The translations under genes were made by a program, and so were the position numbers. A DNA stretch of 64,000 nucleotides from Ignavibacteria bacterium (GTDB lineage: Bacteria > Bacteroidota > Ignavibacteria > Ignavibacteriales > SURF-24). Positions 11,824-14,944 of the stretch are shown piece after piece. Each line of letters begins with the position of its first letter. The stretch's first letter is position 1. Location: NCBI GenBank assembly GCA_025612245.1, contig JAAXKQ010000001.1, positions 124,001 to 188,000 on the forward strand, in the 5' to 3' direction. The notes beneath the pieces were generated by a model that was not told where the DNA came from, made no database searches, and saw only the letters and a list, made by a program, of their open reading frames with translations.

Positions 11824-12501
11824 ATGAAGTTGAGATATTTTTCGCATTCAGCTTTCCAGATAACAACCCATAGCGGAAAGACGATACTTATTGATCCTTT
11901 CCTGGATGAAAATCCGACTTCTCCGGTTAAGTCATCGGATCTCAGGCCCGATTACATCATACTTTCGCATGCCCACGGCGATCATCTGGGTGACGCGATG
12001 AAAATTGCAAAAAAGAGCGATCCGCTCTTCATCTGTGTCTTTGAGCTTGCAAACTATCTTGCCGACAAGGGCTTTAAGACTCACGGCATGCATATTGGAG
12101 GCGGATATAATTATGATTTCGGCAGGGTAAAGTTTACGATTGCCCACCATGGCTCCGGGGCCCCGGATGGGACATACTGCGGCGAGGCCGCTGGTATTCT
12201 GCTTACGCTGGAAGGGAAAATCATCTACTACACGGGCGATACGGGGCTTTTCTACGACATGAAGCTCATAGGCGAGATGAACAAAATTGACGTCATGCTC
12301 CTCCCGATTGGGGACAATTTTACCATGGGCCTAACAGATGCCGTTAAGGCCGTGGAGCTGACAAATCCGCATATGGCTATACCGATTCACTACAATACAT
12401 TTCCTGTCATTGAGGCCGATCCATATGCATTCAAGCGCAGGCTTGAGGAGCAGGGCAGGGAATGCCGGGTACTGGATTTCGGACAGGAAATTGACCTATG
12501 A
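11824..12501 (+). CDS. UPF0173 metal-dependent hydrolase (metallo-beta-lactamase fold)
   Basis: The 225-residue protein begins MKLRYFSHSAFQI, typical of UPF0173, and has the metal site LSHAHGDHLGD (HxHxDH), further His residues in IAHHGSG, the GDTGLF Asp, and a late PIHYNTFP His. The family has the beta-lactamase-like hydrolase fold, but its natural substrate is not established. It is the last gene of the folP-cdaA run. Confidence 0.88.
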   Translation: MKLRYFSHSAFQITTHSGKTILIDPFLDENPTSPVKSSDLRPDYIILSHAHGDHLGDAMKIAKKSDPLFICVFELANYLADKGFKTHGMHIGGGYNYDFGRVKFTIAHHGSGAPDGTYCGEAAGILLTLEGKIIYYTGDTGLFYDMKLIGEMNKIDVMLLPIGDNFTMGLTDAVKAVELTNPHMAIPIHYNTFPVIEADPYAFKRRLEEQGRECRVLDFGQEIDL

Positions 12502-12600
12502 AAAAAGGATTTCCGGGGTGAATTTGAAACTATGGTAAATACCGCTATGTTTTGAGTTCACTGGCACTTAAGGGGATTTTGCCGGGCAGGCGAAATATAA

Positions 12601-12665
12601 TTACACATAAAAGGATTTCCTTATTTTGATAAATATGTGTAACTTAGGGGCATTATTTATCAAAA
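12601..12665 (+). promoter_or_regulatory. Structured parA leader with two overlapping inverted repeats
   Basis: TTACACAT (12601-12608) pairs with ATGTGTAA (12635-12642). TTTTGATAAATA (12624-12635) pairs perfectly with TATTTATCAAAA (12654-12665). The two pairings share base 12635 and interleave, so they exclude each other in RNA; as DNA, either could be an operator. AAGGA-TT-TCCTT lies within the first loop. The block ends 51 bp before parA. Confidence 0.55.
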
Positions 12666-12716
12666 CTGGGCTGTATTCATTTTAATTCTTGCGAATTTGA
12701 ATTCAATTAAAGATTA

Positions 12717-13508
12717 ATGGCAAAAGTAATATCAATAGCGAATCAGAAGGGCGGCGTAGGTAAAACTACCACTGCAATCAATTTATCTGCCTCAATTGCT
12801 GCGGCTGAAAATAAGACCTTATTAATAGACATTGATCCGCAGGCAAATTCCACCTCAGGCCTGGGTTACGATGGAAATAATAAATCGGTTTATGATGTGC
12901 TCGTCGGCCAGGATGACATCAGCAACTGCATTACAAATACTTATATGCCTTTTCTGGACCTCCTGCCTTCGACAATTAACCTTGTAGGAGCCGAAGTTGA
13001 GCTCATTAATGTTGATGTAAGGGAATCCATACTGAAAAAAGCGATTGCAACGATAGAGGAGAGGTACGATTACGTTTTTATAGACTGTCCTCCATCATTG
13101 AGCATACTGACTTTGAATTCATTGACCGCTTCAAATTCAGTTTTAATTCCGGTTCAGTGTGAATATTTCGCCCTGGAGGGTTTAGGGCAGCTGTTAAATA
13201 CTATCAACATCGTAAAGAAGCACTTTAATCCTAATCTGATGATTGAAGGAGTACTTCTGACCATGTTTGATACGCGCCTAAGGCTTTCTCATCAGGTTGC
13301 CGAAGAAGTAAAAAAATACTTTGGGAATAAGGTATTTGATACTGTAATTCAAAGAAATGTCAGAATTTCTGAAGCTCCAAGTCATGCCAAGCCGGTTATA
13401 CTCTACGATGCAGTTTCGGCAGGCGCCCAAAATTACATTGGCTTAGCTTCAGAACTGATGAAAAGAAACTTAGTAGAAAATTCACAACAAGATAAAGTAA
13501 ATGAGTAA
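12717..13508 (+). CDS. parA: Chromosome partitioning ATPase ParA (Soj)
   Basis: A 263-residue Walker-type ATPase that binds DNA when ATP-bound and moves ParB-parS complexes. It shows the deviant Walker A box [11 protein letters not shown] near residue 9, the DIDPQANST block, [12 protein letters not shown] (Walker B) and the terminal [11 protein letters not shown] pattern of chromosomal ParA. It has no N-terminal helix-turn-helix, unlike plasmid P1-type ParA. It overlaps parB by 8 bp. The structured leader upstream is a candidate control site. Confidence 0.97.
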
Positions 13509-14454
13509 TAATAAGTTCAGACCAGGCCTCGGCAGAGGTTTAGATGCTTTAATATCACCAAATTTACAGAACAACAACAACAATAATCTAACAGTCCCGG
13601 CAAGCGACATAAAGCCAGACGACGGGCAGGGTGTGGATGTACTGGCAAAGCTTCCTTTAAGCTCAATTTCGCCTAACCCTTACCAGCCAAGAATTGAATT
13701 TGACCCGGCGGCGCTGGAAGAATTAAAGAAATCCATTCTTGCAAACGGCCTCATACAGCCTGTTACTGTAAGGAGAACCGGGCCTCAGAAGTACGAACTG
13801 ATTTCAGGTGAAAGAAGGTTCAGGGCCTGCGGTGAGATAGGCTACAAGGAAATTCCCGCATACATCATCAAGGTTGATACAAAAGAAGCAATGCTTGCCC
13901 TGGCTCTCATTGAGAATATTCAAAGAGAAAAGCTTAATGCAATTGAAGTTGCACAGGCTTACAAGCGCCTTATGGATGAATGCAGTTTAACACAGGAAGA
14001 AATTTCGGAGCAGGTGGGAAAAGACCGCTCCACAATTACAAACTCGATCAGGCTTCTTAAGCTGCCGAAGGAAATTCAGGACAGCCTAATAAAAGAGGAA
14101 ATAAGTCCGGGTCATGCCCGTGCATTAATCAATCTGCCCAATGAAGCATTCCAGCTCGAGCTGTTAAAAAAGATTATAAAGGAAAACCTTACAGTACGCA
14201 AGGTTGAGGAACTGGTTAAGCAGTTAGCCTTAGGCGGGCAGGCTGCAAAGAAGCCAAAGGCAGGAAGCCAGGGCGTGGTGCAGTCAGTTTCGCAGAGGGA
14301 TTTTGAGGACCGCCTAAGAAGAATTTTCGGCACAAAAGTTTCCTGCAAACAAAAACAGGATGGAACTGGTGAGATAGTCATCGATTTCTATTCAAAGGAT
14401 GAACTTGAACGTTTATATGAGATGTTTGAGATAATTGGCAAAATGTATAATTAA
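13501..14454 (+). CDS. parB: Chromosome partitioning protein ParB (Spo0J)
   Basis: A CTP-dependent DNA clamp that loads at parS and spreads. The 317-residue protein opens with GRGLDALIS, common in ParB, and has the CTP-binding region ([16 protein letters not shown]) and [15 protein letters not shown] helix-turn-helix around [17 protein letters not shown] is followed by SPGHARALI and a C-terminal dimerisation part. I did not find a parS-like palindrome (TGTTTCACGTGAAACA type) in the window. Its last 20 bp are shared with the next gene. Confidence 0.96.
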
Positions 14455-14944
14455 AATATTCCTGTTCCTCCTTCTCGTGTCTACTTCGGCATACAGCCAG
14501 ACAGATACATCTAAGGCCGCAAATACGGCGCAGAAAGATACGCTCGTCTACAGGATGAGCAAATCTCCTCTTCAGGCCGTCTTAAGGAGCGCAGTCTTGC
14601 CGGGCCTTGGGCAGATCTATAACGAGTCCTACTGGAAGGTGCCCGTAGTCTGGGGCTTTTTAGGCTACTACGGCTATGAGTGGATCAGGCAGAACAACAA
14701 GTATCACGATTATTCCACGCAGTACAGGGAAGTCCTTGCCGGACAAAGGCAGGGGACGGCAGAAAACTATAAGCGGGTAAGGGATTTTTACCGCGATCAG
14801 AGGGACCTGTTTGCAATTTATATGGGCATAACCTACGCGCTCAACCTTCTGGATGCATACGTGGATGCCCAGTTGTTTGACTTCAGCGTGGATGAGGACC
14901 CGGTTTCAAGAGTATCCAGGCTGAATTTGAGGATTAACTTTTAA
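14435..14944 (+). CDS. Secreted or membrane DUF5683-type protein
   Basis: A 169-residue protein with a clear signal peptide (FLFLLLVSTSAYSQ) and the block SAVLPGLGQIYNESYWKVP, which I recognise as DUF5683, a family of Bacteroidota/Chlorobi envelope proteins of unknown function. Hydrophobic parts after the signal peptide suggest it stays in a membrane. The start is TTG 14435 inside the 3' end of parB (20 bp overlap), and no later usual start keeps the signal peptide intact. Confidence 0.75.
   Translation: MAKCIIKIFLFLLLVSTSAYSQTDTSKAANTAQKDTLVYRMSKSPLQAVLRSAVLPGLGQIYNESYWKVPVVWGFLGYYGYEWIRQNNKYHDYSTQYREVLAGQRQGTAENYKRVRDFYRDQRDLFAIYMGITYALNLLDAYVDAQLFDFSVDEDPVSRVSRLNLRINF

Follow-up and report, generated by a model that had tools for sequence, protein, structure and literature searches.

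Two interleaved inverted repeats over the predicted parAB promoter of an Ignavibacteria bacterium: possible operators in a tract shared with a congener

The 215-nt leader between the end of a hydrolase gene (12501) and the start of parA (12717) in an Ignavibacteria bacterium holds two perfect inverted repeats that interleave, and it raises the question whether these act in RNA, as alternative hairpins ahead of the segregation genes, or in DNA, as sites for a regulator of the parAB promoter, or whether they act at all. Positions are those of the window, i.e. the whole 64,000-nucleotide stretch of DNA that was analysed, and the features are collected in Table 1. The 12-bp repeat lies where the original prediction had placed it, and it ends, as was also said there, 51 bases upstream of the parA ATG. 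The second repeat is indeed perfect and interleaved with the first, but it is 9 bp long and not 8 bp as claimed, and the full-length arms of the two repeats overlap by two bases (12634-12635), where the prediction had them share base 12635 alone. The arms follow one another in the order A-B-A'-B', which is a pseudoknot topology, and the half-sites are spaced 30 and 33 bp from centre to centre, or about three helical turns. The leader also contains direct repeats: an exact 12-nt pair, AAAAGGATTTCC, is found at 12503-12514, after the hydrolase stop codon, and at 12609-12620, in the spacer of the 9-bp repeat, and a second pair, GAATTTGAA, is found at 12520 and 12693.

Table 1. Features of the parAB locus, in window coordinates
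Feature	Position	Strand	Basis or remark
Metal-dependent hydrolase gene (MBL fold), upstream of parA	11824-12501	+	domain search
Tract of 1,878 bp, 100% identical to G001:C52	12589-14466	no strand	repeats, parA, parB, first bases of next gene
Left arm, 9-bp inverted repeat, TTACACATA	12601-12609	no strand	perfect
Predicted -35/-33-like block, TTTCCTTATT	12616-12625	+	promoter model; -33-like element about 12616-12620
Left arm, 12-bp inverted repeat, TTTTGATAAATA	12624-12635	no strand	perfect
Right arm, 9-bp inverted repeat, TATGTGTAA	12634-12642	no strand	spacer 24; dyad centre 12621.5 (arithmetic)
Predicted -7/-10-like element, TAACTTAG	12640-12647	+	promoter model; start inferred near 12652
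Right arm, 12-bp inverted repeat, TATTTATCAAAA	12654-12665	no strand	spacer 18; dyad centre 12644.5 (arithmetic)
parA, 263 aa	12717-13508	+	Pfam; no HTH domain found; Soj-like length
parB, 317 aa	13501-14454	+	Pfam; ParB_N, HTH_ParB, ParB_C

The two repeats differ in how far they exceed chance. The 215-nt leader was shuffled 2000 times with dinucleotides preserved, and in a scan for perfect repeats with a spacer of 3-30 none of the shuffles reached 12 bp; the 12-bp repeat is thus a real signal and not due to chance. The 9-bp repeat by itself is weak and non-significant; a perfect repeat of at least 9 bp appeared in 137 of the 2000 shuffles. Real sequence was compared through the 181 upstream regions of at least 80 nt on the 461,695-bp contig that carries the locus (C14), of which 8 contain a repeat of at least 12 bp and 34 one of at least 9 bp. 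An interleaved 12+9 pair with a shared base arose in none of the 2000 shuffled leaders and an interleaved 9+8 pair in one, and the parA leader stands alone among the 181 regions in having an interleaved shared-base pair of either size, counts to which no strict probability can be attached because the feature was picked after the sequence had been seen. Elsewhere in its own genome there is no further exact copy of the 12-bp repeat (10-bp arms, spacer 14-22) or of the 9-bp repeat (9-bp arms, spacer 20-28), and over five genomes of the family each occurs exactly once in this genome (G000), once in its congener G001, and in none of G002-G004. An operator would consequently be without the support of a regulon, each repeat being a single exact copy in its own genome. 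For the same reason a mobile element was thought unlikely. Two stretches on virus contigs with a 10-bp-arm version of a repeat were taken as chance.

In the genomes searched, the leader was likewise found only in this genus apart from two short chance-like matches, and the genus is represented in the compared set by two genomes, the present one and G001. A search with the leader over 391 genomes of the class gave four matches, i.e. these two genomes and two short chance-like ones, G177 (33 nt at 89%, with no parA just downstream by eye) and G078 (24 nt), both taken as chance; the other 387 genomes gave no match, in a search that scored two candidates per genome among the matches listed and that could have missed diverged copies. 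No diverged copy of the leader was found in more distant relatives, and neither repeat is present in exact form in 80 loci from a similarity search, of which the best hit is an Ignavibacteriaceae MAG at 70% identity. Regions upstream of parA were tabulated for 70 loci, namely those from the 69 of 136 order genomes with a match together with L002, the sole entrant from the 80 loci. The gap between the hydrolase gene and parA could be assigned in 68 of the 70, with a median of 37.5 nt, and 20 of the gaps are at least 80 nt long, although the gaps are underestimated in places by the rule used, which gives 178 nt for the window against the true 215. In these 20 long gaps, the two congeners apart, perfect repeats reach 10 bp at most. 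Genomes G002-G004 of the same family have predicted promoters, yet no perfect repeat longer than 7 bp in the assigned gap. Since the order relatives often have parA close behind the hydrolase gene, the long leader with a promoter of its own may be derived.

Within the genus the match is of another kind. The leader from 12589 onward, with both repeats, belongs to a tract that is unbroken in G001 (Table 1), while the colinear flanks are about 79% identical, 65-88% in each 100-base bin when the bins that contain the tract ends are excluded. The two species have the same ParA and ParB, at 100% identity, against 62-94% for the eight proteins of the neighbourhood that were compared. Over 153,953 aligned bases of C14 and parts of G001, with a mean identity of 78.1%, there are three such identity tracts. 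The other two lie in a nuo-like operon (gene names read by eye from the translations), one of them, C14:429731-432058, being 2,328 identical bases and the other, C14:434476-436213, two identical runs split by one base, with 74-88% identity between the tracts. On this pattern the tract at 12589-14466 looks like a recent homologous exchange between species, or a chimeric assembly, and the resident parA allele seems to have been replaced rather than supplemented, because G001 has a single parA match at E <= 1e-80. On either account, identity of the leader with that of G001 is no evidence of selection on the repeats. The locus thereby illustrates a trap, in which perfect identity of a leader in two species comes from exchange or from mixing in assembly, and not from selection. 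At another locus of the family, L122 (G003:C124), parAB has a GC3 of 0.40-0.42 against 0.23-0.30 in the compared neighbours, except for the parB-adjacent DUF5683 gene at 0.38, and parAB of that genome may also have been acquired horizontally.

A substantial share of the probability must be given to a neutral explanation. It holds that the 12-bp repeat arose by a rare accident, or is a relic, in an AT-rich promoter region, that the 9-bp repeat is chance, and that both are intact in a second species through recent exchange of parAB. Repeats of at least 9 bp are common in shuffled and in real upstream sequence alike, neither repeat has a second exact copy in the genome, and other members of the family are without them; moreover, the tract shared with G001 is unbroken at coding positions as well and so points to no special constraint on the repeats, and the feature had been selected by a reader from 64 kb of sequence. 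Against this explanation stand the failure of every shuffle to reach 12 bp and the location of both dyad centres on or near predicted promoter elements.

That location depends on a promoter model. According to two published reports, Bacteroidota sigma-A promoters have TTTG at -33 and TAnnTTTG at -7 (PMC7366714, PMC9723704). Because TAnnTTTG counted alone gave weak enrichment (40 forward and 27 reverse, with 29.55 expected), a motif was learned with a two-block model from 638 upstream regions of C14 and parts of G001, and was learned again from the 636 regions that remain without the parA leader and from each of the two genomes separately. The starting words were hand-chosen, and four of them converged on one motif, TTGA..TTT, with a spacer that is mostly N9 before TTt.tTATtTTt. 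Both this motif and TAACTTAG in the leader resemble the Bacteroidota type, although TAACTTAG deviates from TAnnTTTG at one of the six fixed positions. Sites found by the leave-out model of 636 regions peak 20-60 nt before start codons, with a strand bias of 102 versus 17 of 393 tandem regions. This bias was measured on training data, and the evidence relied on is that from held-out regions, where it is smaller: a model trained on 210 own-contig regions gives a score of at least 6 to 54 of 253 tandem G001 regions on the coding strand and to 23 of 253 on the reverse strand, and for one trained on 397 regions of G001 the own-contig figures are 45 and 11 of 140. The motif is thus real, though not a strong one.

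All four trainings, including three without the parA leader, rank TTTCCTTATT-N9-ATGTGTAACTTAGG first in the leader, with its TA at 12640; in one of them the register is shifted by one base. The site falls within the interleaved repeats and is a moderate match, since a score at least as good was reached by 188 of 1000 shuffled leaders. The -7 box of a Flavobacterium promoter map spans -12 to -5 (PMC9723704), and a box so placed would put +1 near 12652 and would therefore leave the left arms of both repeats untranscribed. We infer both promoter and start site in this way, and no transcript-start or promoter mapping for the lineage was found in the literature searched. The centre of the 12-bp dyad then coincides with the predicted -7 box, the left arm lying at about -28 to -17 and the right arm at about +3 to +14, and the centre of the 9-bp dyad is within a few bases of the predicted -33 box. 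A simple sigma-70 scan of 12400-12800 gave two sites over both strands, against a mean of 1.0 in shuffles; the plus-strand site at 12524-12551 (9 of 12 matches) is upstream of both repeats and has a low score, 1.3, in the learned model. Transcripts begun there would include both repeats, and the site counts as weak evidence against a start near 12652.

Because they lie over the apparent parAB promoter, the repeats are more likely DNA binding sites than an RNA switch. The reading that we tentatively prefer, at nearly an even chance, is that they are DNA features of this promoter, likeliest one or two operators for a putative regulator. The promoter core, i.e. the -33-like and -7-like elements and the start, would then lie inside the repeats, and a candidate regulator, dimeric or larger and probably neither ParA nor ParB, would block RNA polymerase when bound at the dyads; since the sites overlap, occupation of one would disfavour occupation of the other. 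Palindromic operators that overlap promoters are a general class among dimeric bacterial repressors, and the leader resembles them in having a perfect dyad on the predicted -7 box a short way upstream of an operon. It differs from them in having half-sites three helical turns apart and two interleaved dyads, and in that there is a single exact copy per genome and the regulator is only putative. The suggestion that each repeat could be the DNA site of a dimeric regulator fits the promoter geometry, although the half-sites are wide for a single dimer. Also to be set against operators are the moderate match of the predicted promoter, the weakness of the 9-bp repeat and the missing regulon, together with the fact that sharing with G001, being part of an identical tract, is not independent conservation, and that G002-G004 are without comparable repeats. 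Half of the weight therefore stays with no function or with an RNA role.

An RNA role is the less favoured part of that half and is unlikely. Here a readthrough transcript from the hydrolase gene, or one that starts upstream of the repeats, for instance from the weak site at 12524-12551, would form a hairpin or H-type pseudoknot with an effect on parA expression. The stems fold well in isolation: the 42-nt 12-bp stem has -10.8 kcal/mol and z -4.17, with none of 200 shuffles as good, and the 9-bp stem has z -2.10, with 4 of 200 as good. By arithmetic, a pseudoknot would be possible with stems of 9 and 10 bp joined by loops of 14, 0 and 13 nt; the short gaps in many order relatives suggest that hydrolase gene and parA are co-transcribed there, and the sigma-70-like site upstream of both repeats would supply a start. 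However, the leader RNA as a whole (12590-12725) is no more stable than its shuffles (z -0.29, 74 of 200 at least as stable), its best fold contains the 12-bp stem and not the 9-bp stem, no Rfam family reaches its gathering score in the leader, the one congener copy, being identical, offers no covariation, and a start near 12652 would omit both left arms. The original prediction had two hairpins that exclude one another in RNA, and this is not supported: with two bases shared and the order A-B-A'-B' the stems would not be strictly exclusive, and the predicted transcript would lack half of each. An intrinsic terminator was also considered and rejected, as the 12-bp arm has one G/C in 12, no T run follows, and a terminator scan finds none.

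Among possible regulators, the Par proteins themselves are poor candidates. No HTH family is among the seven Pfam matches of ParA, in which AAA_31 matches residues 2-176. The parS consensus is TGTTNCACGTGNAACA, and the window has no parS-like site at up to 2 mismatches; the exact canonical sites of this genome, which are its only ones at <=1 mismatch, are at G000:C9 162273-162288 and 163933-163948, on a different contig from parAB. It is thus very improbable that the repeats serve ParA or ParB as an operator for autoregulation of the kind seen in plasmid par operons. The repeats do sit before parA, and class Ia plasmid par operons are autoregulated, with ParA autorepression given in reviews as a trait of the HTH-bearing class Ia (PMC7022226, PMC9178275), but the ParA here is without an HTH family, type Ib ParA is described as without repressor function (PMC9178275), and the exact parS sites of the genome are elsewhere. 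The leader is like the ParA-bound operators of class Ia (PMC7022226, PMC9178275) in having operator-like repeats before parAB, and it differs from them in its short-type ParA and in that parAB is found among housekeeping genes on C14.

The reading of the dyads as operators for another regulator may be carried further, to a proposal that is something of a long shot: two interleaved operators, one for each promoter element, would form a segregation-gene switch private to the genus, and this switch would pass from one species to another along with parA and parB, in an exchange unit of ~1.9 kb that replaces the resident allele. If the dyads are operators, then a chromosomal parAB would be under a regulator other than ParA or ParB in a lineage for which no promoter map was found. 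The exchange of a core segregation operon in its entirety between species at about 79% DNA identity, if it is real, would be more notable than the repeats themselves.
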